A model generated the notes under the pieces. That model had not been told where the DNA came from, searched no databases, and saw only the letters and a program-made list of their open reading frames with translations. From Pseudo-nitzschia pungens (taxonomy: Eukaryota; Bacillariophyta; Bacillariophyceae; Bacillariales; Bacillariaceae), in the NCBI GenBank assembly GCA_037355855.1, contig CM074758.1:2329001-2393000 (forward strand): a stretch of DNA of 64,000 bases. The letters are read 5' to 3'. Below, piece by piece: positions 25,303-63,895 of this stretch. The number at the start of each line of letters is the position of its first letter. The stretch's first letter is position 1. Position numbers and translations under genes: made by a program.

Positions 25303-25304
25303 TA

Positions 25305-25707
25305 CTACGAAATTCCTATCAGCTGTCCCCCCTCCGGTTTAAGAAGAAAAAAAAGCTTTTTTACGTCGATTCGACCTAAACTCTGAAAAACTCTGTAGTA
25401 CAAATTTCTACGTAGTTTACTGTAGGATCAATCGTGCTCATTGAGCTCTGTTTTGACACCGTTGTCAGAGCACTGATTTTTTTCATTCTTTTCGACAACA
25501 CCTTCTTGTTTCGACCCGACCATGGTGATTGCCCAAATCCTGTTGCAACAGCTCCATTGAACCATTTTTCTTGTCCAGAGCAACCCTTGCATCGAGAGTG
25601 TGTTTGAGGCCTTTTTTCTGCTGGAAAATCGACCTTCGTAGCAAAAATACCCCTTCCTTCTTTTTCGGCCGACGAGACCTTCTTCTTTGTCCGACAATTC
25701 CACCATG
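25305..25707 (+). repeat. Left terminal inverted repeat of the DNA transposon
   Basis: The outer 78 bp match the right end perfectly in reverse complement. Further in, blocks such as GCCCAAATCCTGTTGCAACA and CTTGCATCGAGAGTGTGTTT are shared with the right arm. The repeat runs up to the start codon of the second gene (CCACCATGG). Confidence 0.9.
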
Positions 25708-27666
25708 GCCGACTTCAATCAGAATTCCACTGCTGGCAGTCTCAAGCAAGAGATTGAGCGCCAACTGAACCACAGAACTCAAGTGGATGAAAAACCCATG
25801 CAAATTGCAGTGAAAAAGCTTGCAAATAACAAGAAATTCTTGGGGACGAAAAGTGAGAAATTGGCGCACATCAAGAAGATTGGCGATGAGATGATAATTA
25901 GATTCTTCAGACAACAAAAGAATAAAAAGCGAGTCGCCGATGATATCAAACTACTTACTAAACTGCCTCTCTTACACAGGGCCAAGACATCAAAAGAAGA
26001 CGTCGCATTGGTGGTTTTCTACATTGCAGAAATTCTGTACTCGTGCGATGTCAGGGTAGGAGGGAACAAAGAAATTGGTGATTGCGTCAACCCCTTCAGA
26101 GACGCTTATGCTGCGCTAATGAGTGAGGTACGAGAGCAAATAGAAGCGAACAACAAGAATTACCTTATCAAACAGTCTCCAGAAGAATTGAGTCGGCTCT
26201 TCTTGGAAGGGGGGGGGAAACTACCAGACGATGAACTCCTTCGGACGTGCCCATTTTGCTCCCATTCGTATGTGGATGAACCCGCCACCAATGCCGCTGT
26301 AATGGATAGAAATAAAGCATTGGCAGCTGATTTCGACGCAAAAATGAGGGAATACAGGAGCAACAATGGGCATTATACGAATGCCGTTGGCGAGAGAAGC
26401 AATCGGACTCCGCCAAAGCCACAATACAAGCACGAAGTACTCCAGTGCCATTGCCATCAGATCAGATGCCTGGACGCTGCTGGGAATGGATCTTGTAGGG
26501 ATTGCAACACGAATGGTTCAAAGCTCGTTGCGAATGGGAATGGGAACTGCAATTGCCAGGTCTGTTCTTGTACTTGCAATTTCGCATACAAAAAAAATGC
26601 TGTAAACTTGATTTCCGTCAACAAGGGAGCAGAGAAGATTGCTGACAAGGAAAACGTTGACACTGGCAACGCTGTTGCTGGAAAAGCAATTGGATCGATC
26701 TTTGCTGCGTCTGCAACAGAAGCGCACGCTGCTCAAGCTGCAGTTATCCATGCACGGAATGGAAAAACTGACGCTAGTGACGCGTTTCATACGGAGAATC
26801 TGTATTTCCAGGGAGCAAGCCGAAGATTGATGGTAGATCCGTCTATCAACCTCTCATCTCTGCGGGATTTTGCCGGGACTGCCGTCAATATTGCCCTCCC
26901 TGGCGGCGCTGTTTTCGATACGCGTCTCCTTGGCAAAGACAATGGTGGATTCAGGGCAAGAAACAATCGTCTCAACAAACTTGCTGTAGCTGCATCAAAT
27001 GGACATGGTTCTCTTGAGATGGGGCCTCCAGCGCCAAGAAATACCACTTCGGCTGCAACAATCAGTCCGATCCCGGCGTCGACAGCTGTCGTGGCAACTC
27101 CACCGGCAGCAACGCTCCCTACCCTTGGTCCGTTCGATCCATCCAGCAGCGAGATGAAAAAGCCACCCCCCAAGAAATATCAGCATAAAATTCCGATCTC
27201 TGCAACCATGAAGACGTTTCTTTCTGTCAACGCTGCAGTGAACGGGGGGGTGAAGATGCCATCCGCAATGTCACAAGCGCAGGTGGACCAACTCCAGGAG
27301 ATAATCGACGTGCCTGATGACGAGGACGACCTGTCAGTTCTATCAGTCACGTCCTTCAAACGCCAGAAGACTGATGATACTCCTGCCACAGCCATGGTGA
27401 ATGAAACCATCAATAGTGTTGTTGAGTGCGCTTACAATCCAATCATCGATGTTGATTCCCCGGCGTCTCCTGACTCTGCCTTGGGCAGAGACGTTGCTCA
27501 CATTATTGATCTCCCCTTCAAGAATGTGAGAAAAATTGCTCGCGGGATCCTCAAACGAAACAAGGACGCAGGTCCCGAAGACCTAAAGAGATTGTTGGAC
27601 CAAGCGTACCCGTTCCCATCTTCTATCAAGAAGAAGAAGAAGAAGGCAAAGAAGGGAGGGAACTGA
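25705..27666 (+). CDS. Transposon-encoded Cys-rich protein (second gene), function unknown
   Basis: 653 aa from the ATG at 25705 (CCACCATGG context); an upstream in-frame TTG at 25687 is not needed. The N-terminal 170 residues are helical and charged. Residues about 175-300 hold a Cys/His-rich block (CPFCSHSY, CHCHQIRCLDAAGNGSC, CNCQVCSCTCNF) that could bind zinc. The C-terminal half is alanine/proline-rich low complexity, with an acidic patch (DVPDDEDDLSVLS) and a lysine tail (KKKKKKAKKGGN). A heptapeptide ENLYFQG lies at 26794..26814. No enzymatic domain is recognised. An accessory DNA-binding or regulatory role in transposition is inferred from position only. Confidence 0.75.
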   Translation: MADFNQNSTAGSLKQEIERQLNHRTQVDEKPMQIAVKKLANNKKFLGTKSEKLAHIKKIGDEMIIRFFRQQKNKKRVADDIKLLTKLPLLHRAKTSKEDVALVVFYIAEILYSCDVRVGGNKEIGDCVNPFRDAYAALMSEVREQIEANNKNYLIKQSPEELSRLFLEGGGKLPDDELLRTCPFCSHSYVDEPATNAAVMDRNKALAADFDAKMREYRSNNGHYTNAVGERSNRTPPKPQYKHEVLQCHCHQIRCLDAAGNGSCRDCNTNGSKLVANGNGNCNCQVCSCTCNFAYKKNAVNLISVNKGAEKIADKENVDTGNAVAGKAIGSIFAASATEAHAAQAAVIHARNGKTDASDAFHTENLYFQGASRRLMVDPSINLSSLRDFAGTAVNIALPGGAVFDTRLLGKDNGGFRARNNRLNKLAVAASNGHGSLEMGPPAPRNTTSAATISPIPASTAVVATPPAATLPTLGPFDPSSSEMKKPPPKKYQHKIPISATMKTFLSVNAAVNGGVKMPSAMSQAQVDQLQEIIDVPDDEDDLSVLSVTSFKRQKTDDTPATAMVNETINSVVECAYNPIIDVDSPASPDSALGRDVAHIIDLPFKNVRKIARGILKRNKDAGPEDLKRLLDQAYPFPSSIKKKKKKAKKGGN

Positions 27667-27679
27667 ATGTCCCCACCCT

Positions 27680-27780
27680 CTGTATATTGTTGTGTCTCCA
27701 CCATTGTCGATTGTCGCGTCTCCACCATTGTCGATCGATTGTCGCGTCTCCGGCTCCGGCTCCAGCTCCACCATGGTCGA
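27680..27780 (+). repeat. Short tandem repeat TCTCCACCATTGTCGATTGT
   Basis: Two to three copies of TCTCCACCATTGTCGATtgtcg-type units lie just after the second gene. Similar words occur in inverted orientation near 28430-28490, at the 3' end of the transposase gene. Confidence 0.6.
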
Positions 27781-28020
27781 TTGTCGATTTTGGTTGTATT
27801 TCTTAGTGGTTGTTTAGATTTTGCTTTTGCAAGTTGCAAAAATACAAATAATGAATTAGAGTTGCTGAGCGCTTTGAGCGCTTTTCATAGTGGTAGTGGA
27901 TCGATCGATCGCGTTTTGGTGTTCCGGTTTTCATGTAATATATATATATAATCGATATCCACTGCTGTAGATAAATAATGACTAAAGACAACTCTAACCT
28001 ATCAGATTACAAGCACGTCG

Positions 28021-28161
28021 GACTTCAATCCCATCAGTTCTCCTATACATGGACGCGTCGGTCGACTTCAATCCCAGGAGTTATCCTATACATGGACGCG
28101 TCCGCCCACTTCAATCCCACCATCTGAACGTCCGCCGACTTTAATCCCACCACCTAGACGT
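28021..28161 (+). repeat. Degenerate tandem repeat in transposon centre (43-nt and 30-nt units)
   Basis: Four units begin GACTTCAATCCCA or a close variant. The first two are 43 nt and share TCCTATACATGGACGCGTC; the last two are shortened to about 30 nt. They lie between the two convergent transposon genes and may be a shared 3' region or a subterminal binding array. Confidence 0.75.
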
Positions 28162-28492
28162 CCAAGGTTTTCTATTGTACCTATGTTCGATATCCACCAA
28201 TAAAGATGAATATAATCGATTCCCACAAGTGTTCGATACTTAGCTGTGGGAGTGACACGGGAGTGACGTGGGAGTGACACGGATGCCGTCGCTATTGGTA
28301 TACAATCGAAAACCTATTACAAATAAGAAACTGGAGCAAACTGGAGCAAACTGGTGGAACAAACTGGAGCAACTCTAATTCATTATTTCTATTTTTGCAA
28401 CTCTGCAAAAGCGAAATCTATCGACAATCGACCATGGTGGACACAACGGTGGAGACGCGACAATCAACAATGGTGGGGACCCGACAATACAC

Positions 28493-29587
28493 TCAGTTCG
28501 TATATCCGACGTTCGCAAAGTAGTTTACAAACTCGGGGATTCCACGAATAATCGCATACAACTGCTGGCTCAGGTCAGCCGGGTTGGAGATATCGTACAT
28601 CTTGTAGCTCAACGCCATCTCAATGGTATTGAAGACATACTCAATTGGTCCATCCACTGGATAATACGGGGCACGGAACACGAATCGGTGTCCCGCAGCT
28701 AGAATTGCACCCAGCGTCAGTGGATTGTGGTGAGCCAGCAAATTATCCATGATAAAGCACTTCCTATTCCCTGGCGTCCCTTGCGGCAGCGATTCTAGGA
28801 TACTCTCGATAAACGCAGCAAAAGAGATAGCGTCGGTCCCTGTTGTATCAAATCTAACCCAGCGGCGTCCCTCGGGATCCCCACTGATTGCCATCTTGAG
28901 TGTATGATTTACACCATGACCATAGTTACCTCTCTGGCGTACTCTCCCACAAATCGACGCTTTGCCCATTCGGCGGTTGGCATTCTCCAGCTTGATTCCT
29001 GCTTCATCCACATCAATCATATCGTCCCTACGAATGTTGGCAATTCCATACGGATAATTCATTGTCCAGTATCGGAATCTCTTGTATCGATTTCGAAAAG
29101 TAAACGCTTGATTTGCTGTTGTAGAGCCCTTCTTTCTGTTAATTCCAATCGCATTTTCTGCTTCTGTAATATCCTTGAGAGAATATACCCGGGGGACAGG
29201 TAAGTAGCTACTGTAGGATCTCCAGAGGAACGCGATACACTCATACCTTGTTGCCTTTGGATAGATCTTCCGGTATACAGCAAGCAAGAACATTGGGTAT
29301 CCTCGGATCCCTTCCTTCAGCTTGTTTCCAGTGTGTCTCATTCGAACATTCCTCCCTAGCGTTTGGATCCTCCTCCTGTAGCGTTTGGCAGTTCTGGAAT
29401 GAGGAAGAGTCTCGATATCGTTGATTAATTTTCCTATCTCCGCATATCTCACTACAGTGTGTCTCCTCATGTCCTCAGAATAGCCATTCCCTCCATTTCT
29501 AGGGACAGGGATGTCATTTTCACCATATCTAGGCGTTTGGCGAGGAGGCTGGACCGTGTTGCTCTTCAAGGGATTGCCATTCACCAT
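28493..29587 (-). CDS. Tc1/mariner (IS630)-like DD34E transposase
   Basis: 364 aa from ATG 29587 (CCACCATGG context). In-frame upstream codons belong to the inverted repeat. The N-terminal half is a basic helix-turn-helix-type DNA-binding region (RYRRRIQTLGRNVRMRHTGNK). The catalytic residues are visible: D in DMIDVDEAG with the family RRMGKA after it, D in FIMDNLLAHHNP, and E in YYPVDGPIEYVFNTIE. The last two are separated by 34 residues, the Tc1 spacing. The C-terminus is short and hydrophobic (FVNYFANVGYTN). The frame is open throughout and all three acidic residues are kept, so the enzyme may be active. It moves the element by cut-and-paste, consistent with the TA duplication. Confidence 0.92.
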   Translation of the reverse strand: MVNGNPLKSNTVQPPRQTPRYGENDIPVPRNGGNGYSEDMRRHTVVRYAEIGKLINDIETLPHSRTAKRYRRRIQTLGRNVRMRHTGNKLKEGIRGYPMFLLAVYRKIYPKATRYECIAFLWRSYSSYLPVPRVYSLKDITEAENAIGINRKKGSTTANQAFTFRNRYKRFRYWTMNYPYGIANIRRDDMIDVDEAGIKLENANRRMGKASICGRVRQRGNYGHGVNHTLKMAISGDPEGRRWVRFDTTGTDAISFAAFIESILESLPQGTPGNRKCFIMDNLLAHHNPLTLGAILAAGHRFVFRAPYYPVDGPIEYVFNTIEMALSYKMYDISNPADLSQQLYAIIRGIPEFVNYFANVGYTN

Positions 29588-29962
29588 GGTGGAATCGTCG
29601 GATTGTCGGATTCTCGGATTCTCGTCGTTGTCCGCAAAATCAGAAGCAGTTCGAAAAATCGGTTCTACAAGGTCAATTTTGACAGAAAAAAGGCTCAAAC
29701 ACACTCTCGATGCAAGGAATGCTCTGGACAAGAAAAATGGGTTCAAAGGAGCTGTTGCAACAGGATTTGGGCAACCACCATGGTCCCGGTCGAAATGAGA
29801 AGGAGTGGTGTGTTGGTGTCAAAAAAGAAGAAGACTAGTTCCTACACTAAATTACGTTCAAATTGAGTACTAGAGAATTTTCGAAGTTTAGGTCGAATCG
29901 ACGTAAAAAAGCTTTTTTTTCTTCTTAAACCGGAGGGGGGACAGCTGATAGGAATTTCGTAG
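29585..29962 (-). repeat. Right terminal inverted repeat of the DNA transposon
   Basis: Reverse complement of the left end, perfect over the outer 78 bp and imperfect up to the transposase start codon. It ends in the same CGA(A/T)TTCCACCATGG context as the left arm. Confidence 0.9.
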
Positions 29963-29964
29963 TA

Positions 29965-48441: not shown

Positions 48442-48997
48442 TTATGGCTTTGGCTGGTCGGGTCCCCCACTGCTGGCTCTTGCAGCTGCTTTGTCAGGCT
48501 TGTCGCCTCTGACTGCTTCCCGGTACTTGCTCAAATAAAGCTTGAGAGGTTCCACATACTTATCGAACCCGAGGGTAGACATTGCCCACAATAGATCATC
48601 TCCGTTTATTGTTTTTCGTTTTTCCTGTAAACACTTATCGGATGCTTCCGACGTTATAAAGCTTATAAATTCGGAAACGCATTCTTGCACTGTTTCTTTG
48701 GAATCCTTTGCGATTTTTGCGTTTTCAGGTAGTGTATTTTTCATTATCCGAGCAATGTTGGCGATGGGTAAATAGCGATCCTAGACGAGCATATTCAAAG
48801 GAGTGCGTCAGAAATGAAATCTTGAGGCCATCATCATCACATAATTTAAGAAGTCTGTTTTCAAAAACCTTGGCATTTTACACGAGGTTCCTGTTACGGC
48901 ATTACCTACGCACCTGTTCTCGAATCTCTTCGTAATCGTCTCCCGGAGAAATCTTCGCGTCGGCGATCGCTTCGGCATTCGTAGGGTGTTCAGCCAT
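48442..48997 (-). CDS. Nuclear transcription factor Y subunit B (NF-YB/HAP3)
   Basis: 140 aa in two exons, 48914..48997 and 48442..48780, both phase 0. The intron is 48781..48913 (GTGCGT...GTCTAG). Exon 1 gives the short N-terminus [15 protein letters not shown]. Exon 2 opens with [20 protein letters not shown], the canonical start of the NF-YB histone-fold domain. It continues [20 protein letters not shown], then [20 protein letters not shown] and [14 protein letters not shown]. This matches NF-YB residue for residue at the DNA-contact and NF-YC-binding positions as I remember them. NF-YB pairs with NF-YC and NF-YA to bind CCAAT boxes. The tail is short and rich in K, A and G. Confidence 0.96.
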
Positions 48998-49820: not shown

Positions 49821-51835
49821 CTAATCATCTTCAGAATGTTTCAATCCCACTGTCCACAAACGATAATCGATCAGAGTGAGAGCTGAAATTAGTTGCCATC
49901 TAACATTCTGTATGTTCCGTCGTGATCGCATTGACGACAAATGATTCGGGGTCTGGGTACTTACATGAGTTGAAGGAATCCCAAGGGTTTTCATCGTCGA
50001 CACCGAGTCGAATCCACTGAGTTACTATCTTCTTTTCGCCCACGAGAACTGGGCAACCAGAGTGTTCTGTTAATCCTTTGTCCATCACTTTCGTTTCTGG
50101 ATCGATATAAGAAAAGAAGACGGCACCCCCTTTTGTTGGTTTCACATGGACTCCTGCATTTCTAAAGTTTGTGTGGCCTCCAACTTCAGGCATGGTGCTA
50201 AAAATGTCATGGCAGTATTTGAAATTTAATTTATAATCAAGATGTTTGCGATAGAATTCTGGAAGTAAGAAGATTGATCAAAAGAAACACATTTTACAGC
50301 ATTCGCCCATTTAGGTTCAGAACGTACCAATACATCACCATCGTTGCCATCCTCGTTCCAAACTTGTGCGGCAGCCCTGTGCAATCTCTGTTTCGTATGA
50401 ACGAAGGGAAAAAGTTAGTTTGGTTCGGAACGAGAAGCTGTGAACGATTAAAATCGACACTATTGGACTTACCCATCACAGTGTGGTGTGTACCTATCGG
50501 GTTCCGTATCGTTCATACCTCTTCCAAAGTATTGGATCGACATCAAATCTTCTTGTCCATTCTCTTTAATACCAAGCTTCAATACATGGTTTGTAAAGTC
50601 GTAAACTCTTCTTGAAAGAATGGCAATGTGATCTCCCGCATCCTCCTTGCTCCAGTCAACTTTGATCCCAGCTTGCAACGCCTTCCGATGTTCTGAAAAA
50701 TGAGATCCCCCTTTTCCATCGGCAACCGTCGCTTTGTGTAGCTTTGGTGCTGCTGCTTCAGCCATTGCATTGCATTCCGCCTGACTGATAAAATCTTTGA
50801 CAAACATGATCTTTGAAGCGGGTCTATCCAACAACACATCAACCGTCCGACGTCGACGATCACGGGAACTGCGCCACTGAGTCGTGCTTATGGGTTCTGT
50901 TGACTCCAATTCGGTATCGATGCATGTATAATTTTCCATCAATGCTGCCATGTCCGTTCTAATCTTGCTTTGGAAGGCAAGTTCTTCGTTTGCTTTGGAC
51001 AACGATTCCGTTACTTCAGCCTCTACACATTCCATGAGATCGTCCATAGCACGTTGGATTTTATTTGCATCTGTTCCTGCATCTTGCAAACGTCTTTTCG
51101 CTCTTGTTTGACAACCTTGAACAATTTCACTTGCTTTTGATTTAGCTCGAACTTGATCATCAACGAATTCAATATCGAGACCTTCCCGAGCAGTGACGAC
51201 TTTTTTCATTTGTGTTCGATGTTTTATCGGTCGTCGGAGCAAAGTGGCAATCAAATCTATTTAGGCATAACGTACGGTACGTAGCTCACGAACAACCTTC
51301 ACTGCGTCTGGTAGATTTCAATAAAATTCATCGAAACTTTGACTCACCTTGGTCCTCATTTTTTGACACATAAAAAAAACCATTTCGACAGGTCTGGTCT
51401 TCTGATTTGCACACCCCAGAAGACTTTGATGGTACTTCTCGAAGCTCAAACATGTGACCTACATAAGAGTTCAATGCAAAATCTGCTCCGTTAAGAATAT
51501 GGGGCTCCGACATCAGCGCAACCTCTCGGGTCTCCGGCTGTACCGAGCAACAACGAACAACAGAAATTTCTGAACATGAGATGACGCGCCGAACGTTGCA
51601 ATTGATCACTATTTTTTGTCACTTTTCCATCTTTCGGCTCCCTTCAAGGTATGCACTTGTCACTCACATGAATCCAGTAGAGCTCGACCCGGGATCCAGA
51701 GTTGTTGATAATTTTGACCGCTCTGCCAGTATTATCCGCCATGGTTGCAGTCGTCACAAAAAGCAACACAAACAATGTGATAAGCTTGTGACGACACTGC
51801 CCGAAGGCAGAAGCACCGGGAAACAACTCGGGCAT
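49821..51835 (-). CDS. Secreted/ER VHL-beta-like + prolyl 4-hydroxylase fusion (copy A)
   Basis: 479 aa in six exons: 51668..51835, 51348..51537, 50473..51199, 50328..50387, 49965..50197 and 49821..49882. Phases are consistent. After a signal peptide (HKLITLFVLLFVTTATMA), residues about 40-95 (VKIINNSGSRVELYWIHPET, then NSYVGHMFELRE) match the VHL beta domain pattern (N.S...V.L.W ... SY.GH.W.FR). A charged helical linker leads to a 2-oxoglutarate/Fe(II) P4H domain at about 255-470. It has SKIMFVKDFISQAECNAM, iron ligands in YTPHCDG (HxD) and TEHSGCPV (distal His), and a 2-oxoglutarate Lys in GEKKIVTQWIR. It should hydroxylate proline in the ER. It is paralogous to the gene at 61956..63895. 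Start: first ATG in frame. Confidence 0.9.
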
Positions 51836-52442: not shown

Positions 52443-52447
52443 GTAGA

Positions 52448-52624
52448 TGCCATACCCCGGGTCTACTAGTGATTTAGAAAGTAGTAGTGATATGCAAATT
52501 GTGAGAGCTATTGATTAGTCTATTGCTATTGCGCTCCGGCAGTCTCCTGTATTCGGCGATAAGGAGACTCGCCAATCGTAATCCAATCACGAACGGATTC
52601 GTGACTGTATTCCGGTGCACGGCA
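52448..52624 (-). repeat. 3' LTR (left)
   Basis: 177 bp, TGCCATACC...GTGCACGGCA on the plus strand. A purine-rich ATGGAGGAGCA lies just inside it on the coding strand and may be the polypurine tract. Confidence 0.95.
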
Positions 52625-52652
52625 TGCTCCTCCATGGTACTGTTACAATTGG

Positions 52653-55600
52653 TTACTTGTTCGATTCAATGCCATCCCTGCAATAATAGGGATGTACTCT
52701 CCTAATGTTAACCCGGTCGGTTACAAAGGGAGCAGTTTCAATAGTTACAGTTCCATTATCATGGGCCTTGAGCACCTTGTAAGGTCCTTGCCGTGGGAAG
52801 GAGAGTTTTGGAATAATGCCCTTCCTTTCCAGGGTGACATAGTCTCCTTCTTTATAGACATGGGGGATCCTCTTCTGGTTTTCCCTGATGTTGCTCTTGT
52901 GGATGCTCTTCTGCTTCCTCGCTTGGATTGCTTCCCAATCCACTGGGAAGTTCACCGGCATGAACATGTCTCGGCCAAACACCAGTTGTGCTGGGGAGTA
53001 CCCCAGGGTGGTATGGATGGCGCTTCTGATAGCATATGCTGCCTTGGTGGTGAATTCCTCAAAAGGGTCCTCCTCGTGGAGGTCCCTGTTTTCCAGGTTG
53101 AAGGACAACAGACAGTCCTTTAATACCTGATGGATCCTTTCCAACACCGAGTTGGATTGTGGGTTCCAAGCCCCGCTGGGCTTTCTTTTCATCCCCATGT
53201 TCTCGCAGAGCTCTTGGAACTCTGCTTTGAACTCACTCCCGCCATCAAAGCCAATTTCCTTTGGGCGCGGATATCTTGCCAGCCAGGTACTGTCCAACAA
53301 TCGTTGAGTTTCTGCTGCATTTGGGGAGTCCTTCAGGTGAGCCAGTTCAAACCATCCGGTCACTGGGTCCACCATGGTGAGGACATGGATTTGGTAGTCT
53401 TTACCATTTTTGTTGTGGACAGTTGCAGGTCCCCAGAGGTCCACATTGACCCTCTGCCATTTGGTGACCTCAGCTGCTTTTTCCGGTAGTAGTCCATACT
53501 TCTTCCGGCCACTCTTCTTAAACATCTGACACGTGTGGCAGTGCTTACAAAGGTCCTGGACGTCCTTCCGTAGGCCTTTCCAGGTGAAGACTGAGCGTAT
53601 GCTCTGTTCCATTCTCTTTTCTCCGGGATGGACCAACATGCTGTGGTACCATTCCATAACTCTATCCTTGAGTTTATCGGGAATCAGGATCTTTCCTTCT
53701 TTATGGATTAGGTTGTAACCTTCCACCATTTTGGTGGTTAGCCGATTGTCTTTTTCCAGAGCATTCACGATTCCTGTGTCCTGTTGCTGGTAGAACTGAA
53801 TCATGTCCGGGGCAAGTGGGAATGCACTATTGCCCTGGAATTCTTCCGGCGCTTCTCCAAGTGGGAATAGGAGTTGCCGGAGGTGCTCTTCCTCATCCGC
53901 GTAGGTGAGGGGCTTATTTGGTGGTAGCCATTCCACCGTATCTGCTGGGTCATCCGTAATATCCAGTCGTGATAGTGCATCTGCTGCATCGTTGTCTTTG
54001 CCAGCCACATGCTTGACTACCGGGTGGAACTCCTCCATGAGGAGTCTCCACCGGACCATCCTTTGGGTGGGCATCTGCTGATAGAGCAGGTTAAGGTGGT
54101 CTGTGTGAATAATCACATCTTGTCCTCGTAGGATTCCTTCGAATGCCTTCAGGCCTTCTACTATGCCCAGGAGTTCTTTTTCTCCAACAGTGTAGTTGAG
54201 CTGCGCCGAGTTCAGCTTCCGGGTGTAGAAACCAAGGGGCTTGCCATCTTGGCATACAGTTGCTCCCAGTTGCCTATCGCTGGCGTCTGAGTAGAGGTGA
54301 AATGGTTTCGTAAAGTCCGGGAATGCGAGTTTCGCTTCATCTGCGAGCATCCTCTTCGCCTCCATGAAAGCTTTCTGCTCTGCTGGACCCCAGTACCAAT
54401 TCATTTTGCCCTTTTTCCCTGCTAGTTTGTTCAGAGGGGCTAGGATGTGGGAGCGGCGCTTCCACATGTCCCGGTAGAAATTTACCATTCCAAGGAACAT
54501 CTTGAGTTGCTTGGTGTTCTTGGGGGCTTCCAGGCGCTTCATCGCCTCCAGCTTCTTTGGCTGGGGCTGAATGCCCTCTGTCGTTAACAGAAATCCCAGA
54601 TATTCCACTTCTTTTTGCATGAAAAAGGATTTTCGTAGGTTGGCGCGAAAGCCGGCGTCATCCAGTCTTTGTAGGACTGTATCGATTTTGTCGAGGTGAT
54701 CCTGCTCAGATTCTCCCTCTCGTTGAATGATCAGGATATCATCAATATAGACAAGAACGTAGTCCAGATCCCCTAGTAGGTTCATCATGACCGATTGGAA
54801 GATATCCGGCGCACAAGCAATCCCCATTGCTAGTCTCTTGTAGGCATACTTTCCCCACGGCAGAATGGTGGAGCAGATTTTCTGGCTCTCTTTGCAGATG
54901 GGGATGGTGTAGTAACCTTGGGACAAGTCCAGCGCCGTAGCTGATTTGAACTTTTGGAGCCTTTGGATTGTTTCCCCTATTCGTGGTAGTGGGAATGGTT
55001 TCCTTTGGATGGCTGCGTTCATCTTCCGAAAGTCGGTTAGGACGCGAATGTCCCCTGTCTTCTTGGGGTGACAGAAGGTAGGGGATGCCCACGGTGAGTC
55101 GTCATCGTGGGGGAGTTTTTCCAGGACTCCAATATCACAGAGCCTGGTGATCTCCTTTCGGAGTGCTTGTTCAAAGGCATGGGGTACAGAATAGTACCTC
55201 TGCCGGACCGGTTTGACCCCTGGTTGGAGTTCAATGGACACCGGTTCTATATTTTTAAGCAGACCCAATCCTCCTCCAAAGAGTGTTGGGAATTTCTTCA
55301 GTGTTTTCTTCAGCGCTTCCTTGGACGCGTCTGTAATCTCCAGGTCATTGACCATAGCATCTATATCGACTTTGGAGTAGTCGGCGTCCAGGATTTTGGC
55401 TTGTCTTTCTTCCTCTTGTTGGAGGATTGGACTTTGTGTGTTGGCAAAGAATACTGCCTCACATTTGTCCGGGTCAGAGAGTTCCCCCATTCCCTTCATG
55501 GGAATGAAGTCACCCTGCCATTCGATCGTACGGGAGCTGTATTTTATATCCAGTCCCAGTTGTGCCATTAGATCGGATCCTATGATCATGTCATAGGGTA

Positions 55601-55922
55601 CTTCCTCATGGTGATGATATTCATCCACTTGGAAGGTCCATTTGATGGTCTTGGAGTTTGAAAATTCTATCAGCCTTAGTCCCACTGAAGCCGCAGACTT
55701 GGTTCTGAACTTGCCTCCATATGTGTTGTAGGTGACAGATCTTTGGTCTCGGTTCGTTAGTTGACTTCGGTTGACAAAGTGCCTTAGTATGATGGATTTG
55801 GAGCACCCGGAGTCGAGTAGGCCCCGGAGCATCCTCCCCCTTCCCTTGTGGTCCAATACCTCCACACAGACGTCCGCAAATCGATTGATTATGCGTGGTC
55901 CGGTGTGGATGGTATTGGCCAT
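52653..55922 (-). CDS. pol: Ty3/gypsy Pol polyprotein (protease, RT, RNase H, integrase)
   Basis: 1089 aa. Aspartic protease at about 35-130 (LLDSGCSKSI). Reverse transcriptase at about 235-410 (DFRKMNAAI, LDLSQGYYTIPI, catalytic VYIDDILI). RNase H at about 545-680 (LYSDASDRQLG, IHTDHLNLLY, KDNDAADALSR). Integrase with an HHCC zinc finger (HPGEKRMEQSI ... CKHCHTC), core residues in DLWGP, FDGGSEF and SNSVLERIH, and a GPY-type C-terminal module (FPRQGPYKVL). This is the domain order of Ty3/gypsy, not copia. No chromodomain is seen. The start ATG follows the gag stop directly in the same frame, so Pol could be made by UGA readthrough or by reinitiation. All catalytic motifs are intact. Confidence 0.96.
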   Translation of the reverse strand: MANTIHTGPRIINRFADVCVEVLDHKGRGRMLRGLLDSGCSKSIILRHFVNRSQLTNRDQRSVTYNTYGGKFRTKSAASVGLRLIEFSNSKTIKWTFQVDEYHHHEEVPYDMIIGSDLMAQLGLDIKYSSRTIEWQGDFIPMKGMGELSDPDKCEAVFFANTQSPILQQEEERQAKILDADYSKVDIDAMVNDLEITDASKEALKKTLKKFPTLFGGGLGLLKNIEPVSIELQPGVKPVRQRYYSVPHAFEQALRKEITRLCDIGVLEKLPHDDDSPWASPTFCHPKKTGDIRVLTDFRKMNAAIQRKPFPLPRIGETIQRLQKFKSATALDLSQGYYTIPICKESQKICSTILPWGKYAYKRLAMGIACAPDIFQSVMMNLLGDLDYVLVYIDDILIIQREGESEQDHLDKIDTVLQRLDDAGFRANLRKSFFMQKEVEYLGFLLTTEGIQPQPKKLEAMKRLEAPKNTKQLKMFLGMVNFYRDMWKRRSHILAPLNKLAGKKGKMNWYWGPAEQKAFMEAKRMLADEAKLAFPDFTKPFHLYSDASDRQLGATVCQDGKPLGFYTRKLNSAQLNYTVGEKELLGIVEGLKAFEGILRGQDVIIHTDHLNLLYQQMPTQRMVRWRLLMEEFHPVVKHVAGKDNDAADALSRLDITDDPADTVEWLPPNKPLTYADEEEHLRQLLFPLGEAPEEFQGNSAFPLAPDMIQFYQQQDTGIVNALEKDNRLTTKMVEGYNLIHKEGKILIPDKLKDRVMEWYHSMLVHPGEKRMEQSIRSVFTWKGLRKDVQDLCKHCHTCQMFKKSGRKKYGLLPEKAAEVTKWQRVNVDLWGPATVHNKNGKDYQIHVLTMVDPVTGWFELAHLKDSPNAAETQRLLDSTWLARYPRPKEIGFDGGSEFKAEFQELCENMGMKRKPSGAWNPQSNSVLERIHQVLKDCLLSFNLENRDLHEEDPFEEFTTKAAYAIRSAIHTTLGYSPAQLVFGRDMFMPVNFPVDWEAIQARKQKSIHKSNIRENQKRIPHVYKEGDYVTLERKGIIPKLSFPRQGPYKVLKAHDNGTVTIETAPFVTDRVNIRRVHPYYCRDGIESNK

Positions 55923-57362
55923 TCAGTTGTGGGATCCTTTCTTTTTAAAGGTCTTTCTGTACTTTCTTCTGTACTCTTTGAGTTCCCGTTCGGAGATGTC
56001 GATCTCGTCATCGGAGACTTCGTGGTCAGCTTGGGCCGTGGCCAGTACATAAGAGTACTCGTGGTTCGATAGGTTCCTTCCCCAGTGGGGTTTGGAGTGT
56101 TGCTCAGTGTCTGAGTCTTGTTCTTTAGCCACAAAGTGCTCCTTGAGCAGGTTGATGGTTTCCCGGTCGAACTTCCCCTTCTTGTGGGGACCACCGGTTA
56201 GTTTCCAGCATTTGCCGGCATGGACCTTGCCACAGGTCTTGCATAGCTGTTTGTTGCTGTTGTCCACAGGGCGCTTCTTTTTGCCAGGGGATTTCCCGTG
56301 GTGGGTTCCTCCCCCAGATGCGGCCTTGGGGGTCTTCTTGGTGACACCGGTCTGTTTTTCGAGGTCGGTGATGCGTTGTTGCATTAGTGCTTCCTTCCGG
56401 ATGGTGATTTCCAGGTTTTCGAGCTTGTCGATAGTGGTGTTAAAGGAGTGGGTGTAGAGGTCCCAACTAATGTGCTCCAGTTTCTCGCGTTGGGAGTGGG
56501 TCATGTTGGCATCTAGGATTTCCTTCATTTCTCCTTGGGTGAAACTTCTTGGTGTTTCCATTTGGTCACTGCCACATTCCCAGAGGCAATCTGGGAGGTA
56601 GCTTTGGAGTTCGGCCATTCGGTTGGCCCAGGCTCTAATGCCATGTTTGAGGTCCACGCGCATGCCTCGCATGAATCGGCGGAGGACGATATACGAGCGC
56701 TTGCCGTGTTGGTCATTGCCAAAGATTTTGAGCTTGAGGGAATGCATGCATTCCTCAATGACATCCTTTCTGTACTCCTGGGATTGGTAGTACTGGATGA
56801 GTGCGCTTGCGGCCTTTTTCTTTGGGATTGGAGACTCGAGGTTGTCGGTCTCCGATTCTTTGTCCGAGCTCGCCTTGGCTGTGTCGGCTTTGTCGGCGTT
56901 TGGAGCTTGCTCCTTTGCCGTCTCCTTGGAGGCTCCCGTGGGAGTTTCGGTGGCGTCTTGCCCCATTGATAGCAGGATGTTTGCTTGGTCCCTTTGTTCG
57001 ATCTCTTGGATCTTTTTCTGTACGTGTCTGGTGTGATGGACCTTATGGGTTGGTTCGGCCAAGTAGGTCCGCGCGAGCGTCCGCTGGACAAGTCCGAGTG
57101 CCTCAATAGAGAGGATTCTCTGTAGGACCTCCAATTTTTGGTCTCCGTTGAGTTTGTCATTGCCAGCAATTTTCTGGTCAAAGTCTCTCTTCCAGATAAG
57201 GAAGAGTTCTGGTCTTTCAGTACCATTGAGGACCTTCAAGTAGTCGCTGAATGCGATTCCACCTTGTTCGCTGTCTACATTCATCTTTACGGTGTTGGCG
57301 TCTTCCGGCCAGTCCTCCCGTGTGATGTTGAAAGGTTTTAGTTTGGTTCCTTTGGTCGCCAT
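55923..57362 (-). CDS. gag: Retrotransposon Gag with zinc knuckle
   Basis: 479 aa starting at ATG in context GCCATGG-like (ACCATGGCGACC on the coding strand). The N-terminal two thirds are a capsid-like helical region (FSDYLKVLNGTERPELFLIWKRDF, LRRFMRGMRVDLKHGIRAWANRMAEL). An acidic/Q-rich insert carries KETAKEQAPNADKADTAK. At about residue 372-385 a zinc knuckle CKTCGKVHAGKC (CX2CX3HX3C, shorter than the usual CX2CX4HX4C) should bind RNA. It ends in a K/R-rich tail (RELKEYRRKYRKTFKKKGSHN) and a single UGA, after which pol continues in the same frame. Confidence 0.92.
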   Translation of the reverse strand: MATKGTKLKPFNITREDWPEDANTVKMNVDSEQGGIAFSDYLKVLNGTERPELFLIWKRDFDQKIAGNDKLNGDQKLEVLQRILSIEALGLVQRTLARTYLAEPTHKVHHTRHVQKKIQEIEQRDQANILLSMGQDATETPTGASKETAKEQAPNADKADTAKASSDKESETDNLESPIPKKKAASALIQYYQSQEYRKDVIEECMHSLKLKIFGNDQHGKRSYIVLRRFMRGMRVDLKHGIRAWANRMAELQSYLPDCLWECGSDQMETPRSFTQGEMKEILDANMTHSQREKLEHISWDLYTHSFNTTIDKLENLEITIRKEALMQQRITDLEKQTGVTKKTPKAASGGGTHHGKSPGKKKRPVDNSNKQLCKTCGKVHAGKCWKLTGGPHKKGKFDRETINLLKEHFVAKEQDSDTEQHSKPHWGRNLSNHEYSYVLATAQADHEVSDDEIDISERELKEYRRKYRKTFKKKGSHN

Positions 57363-58106
57363 GGTGATTTAATCAGCTGTTTATTAAGTTACTTTAGTTA
57401 CACTATTTCTGTTATCTTTGTTGCTTGTGTTGAAATTGAGCAAAAAGTGATTGCTCAGTTCCTCCAGTTCTTTTGCTGGATTTTTACACTGTTCTCGTGA
57501 TAACTCGTGTTGTAACTGATTTTCCCCCTGGTTTGTCCAGTGGTGGGAGTTGTCTCTCTCTTTAGTTCCCGGGAATCCTGTGGTTCTCCGGAGTTGTTTC
57601 TGTTTTTATTTCGTGGGATTCGATTCCCGTGGTTCTCCGGCGTTGCTTCTCTATTAAGCGTTCACCGGGCCGGTCCCACTTCCCGTTTCCCGTGGGATTG
57701 GTGGTGTTTAGGTATTCATTATATACCTTTCCGGATATCCGTATGCTTCGGTTTTGGTTGGCATCCCCTATTCGGTCTGTCCATCCACTCAGTGTTGGTC
57801 CAATTAGTCCACTCACTGGATTATGTGTCACTTTTTCGACACTTATTTTATTATTTCTTTGTTTCTGCTGTCGACCATGGTCCTGTTTAGGTACTTAGGT
57901 GTCTCTGTTGCTGCTGTTGCTCCCTTCTTTGGGCGCCAACAGTCGCTGGGGTCGGTCTTCCTTGTGCTGCAGACACTGGATATCCTTCTCCCTGTTTTTG
58001 CTTCTCTGCGCCTCCATTTTTGGCAGTCTTTCGGTCTCGTCGGCGCCTTGGCCGATCGATCTTTTTCTGCTCATGGTCATCAGCGCTCAGCTTGATTTTA
58101 AAATCA
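57363..58106 (-). other. 5' untranslated leader of the retrotransposon
   Basis: 744 nt between the 5' LTR and gag. Directly inside the LTR the coding strand reads TGATTTTAAAATCAAGC, where the tRNA primer-binding site is expected. I do not recognise the primer. Note the palindrome TGATTTTAAAATCA. Plus-strand open frames here are T-rich and not convincing. Confidence 0.6.
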
Positions 58107-58283
58107 TGCCATACCCCGGGTCTACTAGTGATTTAGAAAGTAGTAGTGATATGCAAATTGTGAGAGCTATTGATTAGTCTATTGCTATTGCGCTCCGGCA
58201 GTCTCCTGTATTCGGCGATAAGGAGACTCGCCAATCGTAATCCAATCACGAACGGATTCGTGACTGTGTTCCGGTGCACGGCA
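58107..58283 (-). repeat. 5' LTR (right)
   Basis: 177 bp, identical to the left LTR except one base. It should hold the promoter for minus-strand transcription of gag-pol. Confidence 0.95.
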
Positions 58284-58288
58284 GTAGA

Positions 58289-59174
58289 TGCTAATGATTT
58301 GTTTAATATGGCACCTTGATTGAACAAATCAACATATTCTCAAAGGATGAAAGTCGGCAAAGAATCTTGTTGTACTCCTCCAAGCTCTTGATTCCCTGCT
58401 GTTTGCAAGGCTTGTTTGTATAGTGTTTACTGAAGTCTCTGTTATGCACCATCTAAGTATTAACCTTCTTACAAGAGAACATACAAAACAATGTGTCAGA
58501 AAACTCTTGAAACTTCGTGTACAACAAAAAGATGGAAATCAGTGCTTACTAGTTGTTTTGTCAGTATTGTTCGAAAGATCCATTATGACAAAGATATGAC
58601 ACAAAAGTCGACAAACAGAGATGGTAGGTCTTAAATTGTCATGAGACAACTGCACAGTATTCTTTTGAAGATACTTTTGATGAGTCAAGAATTATTATTA
58701 TTTATTTACGACATTCTTCAGGAAAATTATTTTTTGTGAGTTTAAAAAATTGCAATGAATGAATCAAAACGTGTTTTGTTTTCGTACGGAGGGAGAGTAC
58801 AGTGATACAGTACCATAGTAGGGATATCATAAGGAATACTTCCACATACGACACATAATACGTACTAAGTCTTAACTTACCGTATGATGCCAGAATTGAG
58901 CTTATTATAATATTATGTGTTGACCGGTGACTGAAGAAATCTGACCTGGGAGTGCACTGGGCGTTAATAAGTAAATGCCGATAACCAACAAGATTGTTAA
59001 GTAAGGTTAACCTTACTGAACTTCGAGAGAAGTAACATTCTTGATTAACGAGAGATACGCGGAGTGGTTCACTCTGTAGTGAGTAAACCTTACCAAACGA
59101 TCTGAGGACCTTTTTTTGTTGATTGAGATTGTAACGGCTCGGTCATAGATAGAGAAAACTGATTACAACCGAGA
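58289..59174. other. Intergenic spacer
   Basis: No gene. AT-rich, with GTAAGGTTAACCTTACT at about 59002-59018 (a near-palindromic pair of the spacer word) and TAAACCTTACC at about 59083. It contains the FKBP promoter side. Confidence 0.55.
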
Positions 59175-59564
59175 ATGGGTGTTGACAAAGAAGTTATTTC
59201 CAACGGAGATGAAACCACGTTTCCGAATGTGGGAGACCAGCTCACAATGCACTACACGGGGACATTGACGGAAAACGGAGAACAGTTTGATAGCAGTGTC
59301 TCGCGTGGGAAACCATTTATGTTTGTGATTGGCATCGGCCAAGTCATCAAGGGTTGGGATGAGGGCGTAATGAAAATGTCCCTTGGCGAAAAGGCCAAAC
59401 TACAAATTTCATCGGATTATGGATATGGAGCACGTGGAGCACCAGGTGCGATTCCTCCAAACAGCGATTTAACTTTCGAGGTAGAACTCTTGGCCATCGG
59501 CAACCAGAAATCACCAAGCTATGCCGCCAGCAGCAAAAGTGGAAGCAGCTGCAATGTAATGTAG
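59175..59564 (+). CDS. FKBP-type peptidyl-prolyl isomerase with C-terminal CaaX box
   Basis: 129 aa in one exon; ATG in context ACCGAGAATGGGTG. The entire FKBP12 fold is present: [61 protein letters not shown] and [14 protein letters not shown]. The aromatic and acidic drug/proline-pocket residues (Y, F, D, W, Y, F) are kept, so isomerase activity is expected. After the fold a 20-residue S/K linker ends in CNVM, a CaaX box; Met at the end favours farnesylation, which would tether the protein to membranes. There is no signal peptide. It is convergent with KTI12, 207 bases apart. Confidence 0.95.
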
Positions 59565-59771: not shown

Positions 59772-60914
59772 TTATTCATATTGCCGCGTTGACATCCCCT
59801 CTTTGAGATTTTGAGTCCGGAGAAGAAAAATATCCAGAATTTCATCAAGCTGCTCCTCGAGAGACTTATCATCGCTCGTTTGTCGCTGATTTTCTTGAAC
59901 GGGTTGCGGGTCCCCAGATGACGATGACGGTATAGGATTACCATCGCCAGGGATTTTTTCAAGCTCAATTGAGGTATCCTGCAGCGAAGAATTCATCATT
60001 GAAGTATCAATTACAATCTTATTATTGTGATTGAGTGTCGGTGTGATTTTCTTCGTCTCTTTCTCGACAGTTTTTGATACTTTCCTCCTCCGTTGAAACG
60101 CGGATTTCTTAGGTGCTTTTGATTGACGTGAGGCTGGATCAAGTGCGGTCCTGCTGGCTTGCTGAGATTCGGTGACGACAGATGAAGTGCCTGTATTGCT
60201 ATCTGTTTGCTCTGTTATTACTGAGCTCCCGAAAGCTTCTCCGAGGGAATGCATGTTGTACACAGAACGTTCCAGCACTTCATTCTTACTAGAAAGGTTT
60301 TTTTTAACTTGCGAATCCCTGCCCTCACAAGAAGACGAAGCCAAGCTTGACGCCGCTGCTACGTCAATTGTGAACAGCGGCTTATCCCATCGATTCCTAT
60401 CATCAGGAGGTTCAAACCGAGAGATCAATTCTTGCAGCAATACCGAAGAGTAGTTCTTGTTCCATTCTTGAACGACCGATAGTCGATTCAATACCCACAG
60501 GATACCATGTTTTTCTCCCGCCGCCTTGGATATACAATGTAACTCGTATCGAAACCCTTTGATGTAGTTCAGGGAGTCCAGAATAACGAGTCGTCGACTA
60601 CTATCATTGTTCCCACCACTCTTCTTCACAGCTCGATCAAATGCAGCTTTCAAAGCTCCTCGTGTTTGCTTTTCAGCCAATGAAGTTTCGTAGAGAGACT
60701 GCTTGGTAGTAGCGATATTCTGCTTTTTCTCCGCGGTTGAAGTGCCATCCCCTCCATTCTCATCGACGTCGTTATTAATGCAACCGCATTCTGTTTCTTC
60801 GTTTAAAATAACAACCTCGTCGATCGAATCGTGCAGCAAAGCTCTTTCTTTCAATAGATTGGCGACTGTAGTCTTTCCCGCAGATGGGTGACCAACTACA
60901 ATCAGACAAGGCAT
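59772..60914 (-). CDS. KTI12: KTI12-like P-loop ATPase (Elongator-associated)
   Basis: 380 aa in one exon. The N-terminal P-loop GHPSAGKTT (residues 8-16) matches KTI12/PSTK-type kinases. LVILDSLNYIKGFRYELHCI is the Walker B and KTI12 signature, followed by GILWVLNRL. RFEPPDDRNRWDKPLFTI is the conserved substrate-side segment. Yeast KTI12 binds Elongator and tRNA and is needed for wobble-uridine modification. The region about 235-330 is a low-complexity insert (QQASRTALDPASRQSKAPKK). The C-terminus EEQLDEILDIFLLRTQNL matches the family end. The related O-phosphoseryl-tRNA kinase is less likely given the GFRYE signature. The frame is intact. Confidence 0.9.
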   Translation of the reverse strand: MPCLIVVGHPSAGKTTVANLLKERALLHDSIDEVVILNEETECGCINNDVDENGGDGTSTAEKKQNIATTKQSLYETSLAEKQTRGALKAAFDRAVKKSGGNNDSSRRLVILDSLNYIKGFRYELHCISKAAGEKHGILWVLNRLSVVQEWNKNYSSVLLQELISRFEPPDDRNRWDKPLFTIDVAAASSLASSSCEGRDSQVKKNLSSKNEVLERSVYNMHSLGEAFGSSVITEQTDSNTGTSSVVTESQQASRTALDPASRQSKAPKKSAFQRRRKVSKTVEKETKKITPTLNHNNKIVIDTSMMNSSLQDTSIELEKIPGDGNPIPSSSSGDPQPVQENQRQTSDDKSLEEQLDEILDIFLLRTQNLKEGMSTRQYE

Positions 60915-61955
60915 TGATGCAGGTTTCGTAGACGCCGATTCGTTATGATGATTACTTTCCCCGGTTTCATTTCCTTATCGGTACTAGTAACTACTTCGAC
61001 GATTCATTCGCTCGTAATTGGTACAGGACGAAGTAAGGTTTACGGTAGCTTTGTACCGGTACTACGGTAGATGAGAAATTCGAATCATTTTCGTGACCCG
61101 AAAACGAGTGGTAAGAGTACAACAACCGATGGGCCTTGAAAGTCAGTAAGGTTACTCCCTTATTGTACGTAAAAAATACCGCCATGAATATTCATACACG
61201 ATACGCGTACGCTGAACACGTACCGGTCGGTACCGGTAAGGTTTACTTTATTCACATTTTTTTATTCATACTTTACGATAAGTTACTGATCAGTACGAAC
61301 CGGGAGTGTCTTGTTGGAACGATTTATGATACAGTTTCAAGTTAGGTAATAGAAGTATGTACTACTACGAAGTAAAAGTAAGGTTGAGGGAGAGGATGTC
61401 CTCATTGTTTTGGAAAGGTTGCCTTACTCCCGTTTGATGAAACCGGTGGTCTGCGAAAACGTCTCCAACCTTTCACCCTTGCAATGCACCTGCTTACAGT
61501 TTTCGGTGATACACCCCAAACTGTAAGCAGTGGGATACTCTACCTAGCACCACCTTTCCACGCTTTCAAATTTGTAATCCTGCCAAATCTGTATGTCGTC
61601 CATAACACATGGATGTGGACCCCTATGGGTGAAGTGGTCAAAAGTACTGATTCAGGTGCAACACAGTACGCTGGATTGGCAGTTTCTGGCCAGATGCGCC
61701 AGGTACCAAAACTGTGTAGCTGTGATTCTTGCCTCCTCCTCACCCTTAATCAGATACTCATACAATCATAGAGATAATGGCATTTCCATAATTTTGAGAC
61801 AAATGAGATGTAAAAATCTACAATGCAATCAGAAAAAATCAGTACAAACAGCATCTAGAACCTAAAAATTATCATGTTCTGCTAATTTGCTCAACAAACA
61901 TACAACTGGGTCATAATGTCAACCAGTCTCTGTAGTGATACTATTGATAGGTGCA
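60915..61955. other. Intergenic spacer
   Basis: No supported gene. Positions 60970-61400 are dense in GTAAGGTTTACGGTA and TACCGGTACCGGTAAGG words. A perfect stem-loop lies at 61490-61530. Short open frames have no domain. Confidence 0.55.
61490..61530. repeat. Inverted repeat, 13-bp arms with 15-nt loop
   Basis: The arms CTGCTTACAGTTT and AAACTGTAAGCAG are exact reverse complements. It lies downstream of the minus-strand copy B gene and could act as an RNA hairpin or mark a small element. Confidence 0.75.
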
Positions 61956-63895
61956 TTATTCCCCATCCTCTGCATGAAGAATGGTCACTGAAAGGAGAAC
62001 AAGAGTCGGGGGATGAGAATGTCAGAAATACATTGAATTTCACCAAAAACTCAAAAACAGAGGATATTTGAGGCAGCACTTCAGTACTTACATGTGTTAA
62101 ACGCACTATGAGGCGTCTCTGTGCTGACACCGTAGCGCACCCACTGGGTAATGATTTTCTTTTCACCCTCGTACACAGGACATCCTGAGTGTTGCGTGAA
62201 TCCATTGTCCGTCAGGTTTGTTTGGGGATCCATGTAGCTGAAAAAAACAGCACTTCCACTGTTTGGCTTCACGTGAACATTGGCATTCTGAAAGTTTGTA
62301 AATCCGCCCTTTTCTGGAATTGTACTACATTTTTTCCAGAAAGGAGATCGCACAGCAGAAAAGAACGAGTGTGGTGTTAACAAATGTGGCATGCGAAAAA
62401 AAGCAATAAAATATTTTTGTCACCGCAACTTCTTACCAATAGATTACCATGGTTGCCATTCTGCCACCGATCAAATGCTTTTCCCCGTTGCAGCGACCAT
62501 CGCAGTGTGGGGTGTACCTATCGGGTTCGAAGTCGTGTTTTCCTCTTCCAAAGTACTGAATTGACATGAGCTTGAATGCAGGGAGAGTGGAAAAAACAGA
62601 AATGGAGAGAATCAGTAAATTTTTCGGCGTTGTATTATTTCCTAAATTCCTTCTGTTACAAAATCGAAACAGAAAGCTTACCGGTTCTTGCCCGTGATGC
62701 GTGATGTTTAAATCGAGAACGTGGTTGGTATATTCGTATACCCGTCCACTCAGGACCGAGATCAAATTGTCATTCAGGGGTAACCCATCGTCTGTGAATT
62801 TTGGTCTGATACCTGCTTGCATGGCTTTGCGATTTACGGAAATTCTTGTTCCACCCTTGCCATCAGCAGTTGACGCAATGTGTAAGTCTTCCTCTGCCTC
62901 AACTTCCATAGCGTTGCACTCCTCGGGGCTTGCAAAGTTTTCGACGACGTGAATTTTACTGGCAGCACGATGCAGCTTTTTATGCACAGTTCTTGTGACA
63001 CCATCTACCGGCGACGTCCATTCCTCAGTCTCAACATCAGGACTGGATTCCAAACCAACATCTACACAGGTAAAGTTTTCAGCGATATTCGAAGCCTCCA
63101 ATCGCAGACTTCGCTGAAACTCTACTTCATTCATTGACGCGTGGATACTAGGGGCCAACCCAACGGTCATACAATCGTGGAGTTCCGAGTGAATTTGTTT
63201 GATAGCGTCTTCATCATCGTTGTCATCCAATTCGCTCAATCTACGAGTGGCTTGTTCTTTACAGTTAGCTAAGGTATCAGTTGGATCCTTCACATCATTC
63301 AAATCGATTTGACCAATGAGCCTCTCCACTTGACGAGTCTTTGTCTCTTCTGCTTCTTCGATCACCAGACCACTCTTAATAAAAAATTCTATTGATGAAA
63401 ACATTGATTGCGAGCGTTGCAGATTGCAATCGAATTTCTACGTTAGCTCGACAAGGACGACTTCGTCAAGAAACAAAATTAAGTCTTCACACGGTGTTCC
63501 GCCCTGCGTTGTTGACGTATTTGCGAAATTTCGGACCAAATTTCGGACCAACTACAAACCTCTGTTGACTCACCTTGATCGGGACTTTTTGTAACTGCAA
63601 AGTAGGCAACTTTGCATTCCTTGTCATCTTCGCTGCCGCAAAAACCCGTTTTGGGATTCTGCTCCTGCCTGACTTCAAATCGGTGCAGGAGAAAAGAGTT
63701 CACAGTGAATTCTGACCGTGGTTTGATGTTGGTTTTGATGGGGCTTGTTTTTTTCGTTTCTGGATGGACCCAATGAATCGACAAGTAATCATCGCTTTCG
63801 TTGGTAAATAGGAGGAGCGATGGCGTTGCCGACGCAGCCGTCGCCACTGTGAACGAGAACGCAAATAATGATACCAGTGTGTTGATGATTTTCAT
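61956..63895 (-). CDS. Secreted/ER VHL-beta-like + prolyl 4-hydroxylase fusion (copy B)
   Basis: 475 aa in five exons: 63574..63895, 62682..63388, 62437..62570, 62092..62324 and 61956..61987. Phases are consistent. The signal peptide MKIINTLVSLFAFSFTVATA is followed at about 25-75 by a VHL-beta-like region (LLLFTNESDDYLSIHWVHPETKK ... FTVNSFLLHRFEVR). A cysteine pair CGSEDDKEC and an acidic helical linker follow. The P4H domain spans about 260-470: SKIHVVENFASPEECNAM, iron ligands in YTPHCDG and TQHSGCPV, and Lys in GEKKIITQWVR. It shares with copy A the 233-nt penultimate exon and the TG|T(A) and T|GTAAGTAC splice points. It differs by an intron at QEP|LMS and by lacking the one at HCDG. Hydroxylation of proline in the ER is expected. 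Confidence 0.9.

Follow-up and report, generated by a model that had tools for sequence, protein, structure and literature searches.

We found that a diatom gene, here copy A, encodes in a single spliced frame a signal-like N-terminus, an N-terminal domain (N-domain) predicted to adopt the VHL beta-sandwich fold, and a prolyl 4-hydroxylase (P4H) domain; the observation itself, that all parts lie in one frame, had been made in a preliminary description and is confirmed. The reading that we favor, to which we assign a probability of roughly 0.45, is that the product is a secretory-pathway P4H whose VHL-fold N-domain binds stretches of substrate rich in proline or hydroxyproline (Hyp) and keeps the enzyme on the chain. 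What computation supports is the exon structure of the gene, the order of its domains, the ligands of the P4H, the fold as predicted, the pocket conservation and the occurrence in several diatom groups; beyond these, we infer Hyp binding, processivity and substrates. A second gene of the same domain order, copy B, lies in the same window (the whole 64,000-nucleotide stretch analyzed, bases 2329001-2393000 of one contig). The features of both genes are as follows.

49821-51835, minus strand: copy A gene, encoding a VHL-beta-like domain, a helical linker and a prolyl 4-hydroxylase; 6 exons (51835-51668, 51537-51348, 51199-50473, 50387-50328, 50197-49965, 49849-49821), 468 aa
51734-51835, minus strand: copy A, N-terminus that by eye resembles a signal peptide, about residues 1-34
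51668-51730, minus strand: copy A, first part of the VHL-beta-like domain, exon 1, about residues 36-56
51348-51537, minus strand: copy A, main part of the VHL-beta-like domain with the NSYVGHMF pocket motif and Cys pair, exon 2
50473-51199, minus strand: copy A exon 3, final beta-domain strands, helical linker with conserved Cys and start of the P4H domain (secondary structure derived from the model of the relative P0001)
50483-50481 (His) and 50477-50475 (Asp), minus strand: copy A, HCD iron ligands, exon 3
50328-50387, minus strand: copy A exon 4, P4H domain
49965-50197, minus strand: copy A exon 5, P4H domain with the second iron His (50064-50062) and the 2-oxoglutarate Lys (50034-50032)
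49821-49849, minus strand: copy A exon 6, C-terminal tail without a KDEL-type ending
61956-63895, minus strand: copy B gene, same domain order; 5 exons (63895-63574, 63388-62682, 62570-62437, 62324-62092, 61987-61956), 475 aa
63575-63832, minus strand: copy B, VHL-beta-like domain in a single exon, 86 aa, the sequence used for modelling

All five introns of copy A are GT..AG, and the open frame runs to a stop. The relative P0081 (468 aa; cluster members from JGI and MMETSP; ORF name 'type:complete') was collinear with copy A over the full length, all five junctions included, which speaks for a single transcript, and comparison with it set the exon-3 acceptor at 51199. The gene ends and six exons first proposed for copy A proved right, as did its two VHL-pattern segments (NNSGSRVELYWIH from residue 44 and NSYVGHMFELRE from residue 79) and its HxD...H...K ligands, which are H359, D361, H427 and K437. 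Six transcriptome-only clusters likewise join both parts in one frame (P0003, P0011, P0040, P0053, P0057 and P0093; all from mmetsp, P0053 additionally from eukprot).

Copies A and B share 45% identity (199/445 aligned residues), and P0001 matched copy B end to end, with 94% identity over 100% of its length. A search of the source genome (66.9 Mb, 28 contigs) at E<=10 recovered the N-domain in copies A and B only, the sole query being copy A's domain, which could miss a diverged copy; matches to the oxygenase family numbered 33 stretches. For a midpoint-rooted tree we selected 36 of the 159 rows of the family alignment; in it, copy A with 20 others and copy B with 9 others formed two groups, each with support of 100/99. 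Because these separately supported groups each hold a Nitzschia inconspicua protein, the tree suggests that the duplication predates the genus Pseudo-nitzschia.

Other features of the window were recorded as well. Between the two copies lies an LTR retrotransposon (52447-58283; 178-bp direct repeats, 99% alike) with two minus-strand ORFs named by eye, one pol-like (52653-55922, 1089 aa) and one gag-like (55923-57368). An FKBP-type peptidyl-prolyl isomerase ORF (59163-59564, plus strand; assigned by eye, with no evident signal peptide) also sits between them, and by eye we further assigned a KTI12-like P-loop protein (59772-60974, minus) and, directly downstream of copy A, an NF-YB-like histone-fold protein (48442-48780, minus). 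Farther away, within 25303-29964, inverted repeats (one of 87 nt, 98% complementary, plus shorter ones) surround a transposase-like ORF (28493-29818, minus; named by eye), with another ORF at 25642-27666 (plus).

The preliminary description had called for a survey of the same domain order elsewhere, and we found that order in several diatom groups. Homology search returned 512 relatives at E<=1e-3, of which the best 120 were listed, and a search with P0111 as query returned 253, with 37 new among the best 120 listed. The resulting alignment comprised 159 rows (157 retrieved proteins plus copies A and B), and the whole N-domain precedes the P4H domain in 125 of them, an order too frequent for coincidence; the other 34 are N-terminally shorter, begin inside the N-domain or are unaligned there (P0046 and P0060 were removed). 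Among the matches listed, every relative with an organism name is from a diatom, most listed proteins carrying no such name, and the closest named ones belong to Pseudo-nitzschia. The matches listed include Pseudo-nitzschia multistriata, australis, delicatissima and arenysensis, together with Nitzschia, Phaeodactylum, Seminavis, Amphora, Entomoneis, Grammatophora, Astrosyne and Synedropsis, further members from Cylindrotheca, Mayamaea, Epithemia and a Bacillariaceae MAG, and, from the centric Thalassiosirales, Thalassiosira minuscula and Cyclostephanos tholiformis.

Modelling of the copy B domain and of P0001 predicts that the N-domain is a pVHL-type beta sandwich, as the early reading of copy A had proposed. 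The predicted fold aligned over pVHL residues 68-147 at 18-20% identity in the fold alignment, within what we take to be the human VHL beta domain (about 63-154, Pfam PF01847). In Foldseek searches against the PDB, 50/50 of the matches listed were pVHL-complex entries, the best E-value with the domain alone being 4.9e-3, and profile comparison placed the N-domain pocket residues in register with those of pVHL. The VHL-family profile match that had been anticipated was not obtained: PF01847 was silent for both copies at E up to 1 and for 36 N-domains at E up to 10 (0/36), and was absent among the best 25 of 29 Pfam families listed for 56 full proteins. The Pfam VHL search of the source genome gave no match, but its controls were silent too, which makes it uninformative, and NCBIfam gave none on three relatives at E<=0.01. 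A PDB profile search returned no VHL entry, its six hits (RecU x3, MER kinase, RNase 7 x2; E 0.17 to 0.68) being taken as chance, and the hhalign probability did not rise with a deeper profile (125 rows). Proof of VHL kinship from sequence was therefore dropped, the Pfam, PDB profile and NCBIfam searches being without a VHL match. A search with human VHL found vertebrates wherever an organism was named (best 120 of 377 listed).

A viral origin was considered and set aside: no relative was confirmed in viral contigs, and when the model of the copy B domain (63575-63832) was searched against BFVD, nothing reached E<=0.001. Several viral proteins in that database may share the fold, among them a chlorella virus protein (E 0.019) and two pithovirus proteins, which matched it with probability 1.00 at E 0.02-0.08, and from such models VHL-like folds in giant viruses are possible.

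The C-terminal domain conformed to the P4H fold and resembles algal P4Hs and collagen P4H more closely than it does PHD2. It exceeded the Pfam 2OG-FeII_Oxy_3 cut-off of 27 bits in copy A (37.4 bits, in a 487-aa version of the model) and in copy B (38.7 bits). The H-x-D iron ligands are present in 159/159 rows, the second iron His in 149 (10 gaps) and the 2-oxoglutarate Lys in 148 (11 gaps), and all are intact in both copies. The domain should thus be a P4H with complete iron and 2-oxoglutarate ligands, and peptidyl-proline hydroxylation is its predicted activity.

In both copies the N-terminus is hydrophobic and, judged by eye, resembles a signal peptide, and we infer secretion or an ER location in this species; the paired conserved Cys would fit an oxidising compartment. 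Endings of the xDEL type occur in 8/157 relatives, including Amphora P0090 (HDEL) and Phaeodactylum P0072 (SDEL), and two more end in EEL; copies A and B have no such ending. Passages of PMC5501833 and PMC4557024 report dihydroxyproline in diatom walls and in the silaffin tpSil1H, so that hydroxylated secreted proteins do exist in diatoms.

A role as an E3 ligase or oxygen sensor was considered and set aside in view of the signal-like start, the lack of a proper BC box and a P4H domain closer to algal and collagen enzymes than to PHD2. Taking the BC box for Elongin C as strictly [APST]LxxxCxxx[AILV], we found it in 7 of 125 rows, LxxxCxxx[AILV] in 43 and a loose hydrophobic form in 90. The linker does contain a Cys (copy B residue 150) that is invariant in 125/125 rows, in the helix pattern hydrophobic-xxx-C-xxx-A; this loosely recalls the VHL BC box and is probably a coincidence.

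To judge what the N-domain might bind, its pocket can be set against that of pVHL, where, according to a passage of PMC9528729, Trp88, Tyr98, His110, Ser111, His115 and Trp117 surround the hydroxyproline, Ser111 and His115 binding the hydroxyl and Tyr98 the carbonyl. Among the 125 rows with a whole domain, the equivalents of Trp88 and His115 are invariant (125/125 each), that of Ser111 is Ser in 117 and Thr in 8, that of Trp117 is Phe in 124 and Ile in 1, and that of His110 is Asn in 83 and Asp in 26. Tyr98 was not kept: Tyr occurs in at most 7/125 rows at any of columns 51-57, the exact Tyr98 column being uncertain. In the first set (94/122 rows), 4/6 pocket positions fell within the top eight of 98 columns ranked by conservation (P 2.7e-4, calculated post hoc). 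The N-domain thus appears to retain much of the pVHL hydroxyproline pocket.

In the mechanism that we favor, the N-domain would dock Pro/Hyp-rich stretches of a secreted substrate, for instance repeat proteins of the cell wall or associated with silica. It would prefer, or at least accept, stretches in which hydroxyprolines have already been formed, and its docking would keep the P4H domain on the substrate for successive rounds of hydroxylation. A precedent for docking by a separate domain is the PSB domain of collagen P4H: according to PMC12433258 it binds peptides that are rich in proline and also ones that contain hydroxyproline, its mechanistic role being still unknown. A precedent for a beta domain that reads Hyp without the remainder of VHL is VHL 63-157 in Arabidopsis (PMC13223302). 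A stronger version, which we hold tentatively and at somewhat short of even odds, is a reader and writer of Hyp in one chain, the VHL-fold domain recognising the mark made by its own P4H and spreading it along proline-rich repeats of wall proteins. Such an arrangement had been put forward at the outset, and that interpretation is supported in part: the domains, their order and the predicted fold agree with it.

Rather unlikely, in our estimate, is general capture of proline-rich chains, in which the aromatic pocket would hold a plain proline ring and not discriminate Pro from Hyp. Substrate capture is what we take to be the suggested job of the collagen PSB domain. The pocket aromatics (W/F) are retained and Tyr98 is lost, as this reading would have it, and PMC12433258 likewise describes a separate peptide-binding domain ahead of the catalytic domain of C-P4H. 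However, the Ser/Thr and His that bind the hydroxyl in pVHL are kept in 125/125 rows although a pocket for unmodified proline could do without them, and the case for Hyp reading as opposed to plain proline capture depends solely on these residues.

We consider it unlikely that the N-domain has a structural role or some unrelated target (a partner subunit, a dimer contact or a glycan), with W, S and H kept for folding. Strong structural constraint is evident in the same domain, where the Asn78 equivalent is found in 125/125 rows and the two Cys in 122 and 125, and such constraint could yield equal conservation of pocket columns. On the other hand, four columns of the top eight by conservation belong to the pocket, a post hoc pattern, and the attached enzyme should produce exactly the modification that is read by this pocket in animals. 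Product feedback or hand-over, where binding of the finished hydroxylated chain would free the enzyme, hold it back or deliver the substrate to a glycosyltransferase, draws on evidence identical to that for docking and differs only in the consequence of binding; nothing specific speaks against it, but no data favor it over docking, and we regard it as improbable. That the VHL resemblance is a chance likeness of small beta sandwiches is very improbable, since the weak sequence signal and the modest domain-only E-value are set against uniformly pVHL-complex PDB matches and pocket residues in register.

Both parts are of known kinds, and their combination and its setting are new to us: among the open-access papers listed, no title or opening of an abstract described a VHL-P4H fusion, and the parts consulted of a treatment of animal VHL (PMC5800844) make no mention of one. 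A structure-based annotation of the family may already exist. The pVHL fold and much of its pocket on a secretory-type P4H suggest that Hyp reading extends beyond HIF degradation, and the family offers a test of reader-writer coupling outside chromatin. It is also a concrete candidate for hydroxylating the dihydroxyproline-bearing wall and silaffin proteins, and the N-domain, if it binds Hyp, would be a compact natural scaffold for Hyp recognition. The single-chain reader-writer, if true, would place a VHL-fold module outside both ubiquitin signalling and the cytosol.

Compared with known systems, the N-domain shares with the pVHL beta domain the predicted fold and the equivalents of N78, W88, S/T111 and H115; it differs in its 18-20% identity in the fold alignment, the loss of Tyr98, the replacement of Trp117 by Phe, the conserved Cys pair, the signal-like start and the absence of a Pfam match, and the strict BC box occurs in only 7/125 rows. 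The solved chain of Chlamydomonas P4H-1 (213 residues) is without a VHL-like domain and aligns to the diatom catalytic part only. The extra module of the C-P4H-I/II alpha subunit is the PSB domain, presumably of TPR type, whereas that of the diatom enzyme is a predicted VHL-like beta sandwich ahead of the linker; TPR is among the terms given in PMC12433258. With the oxygen-sensing pair of HIF PHD2 and pVHL the diatom protein shares the association of a prolyl hydroxylase with a VHL-fold module, although in animals, as is known, pVHL reads a mark that another protein, the hydroxylase, has written.
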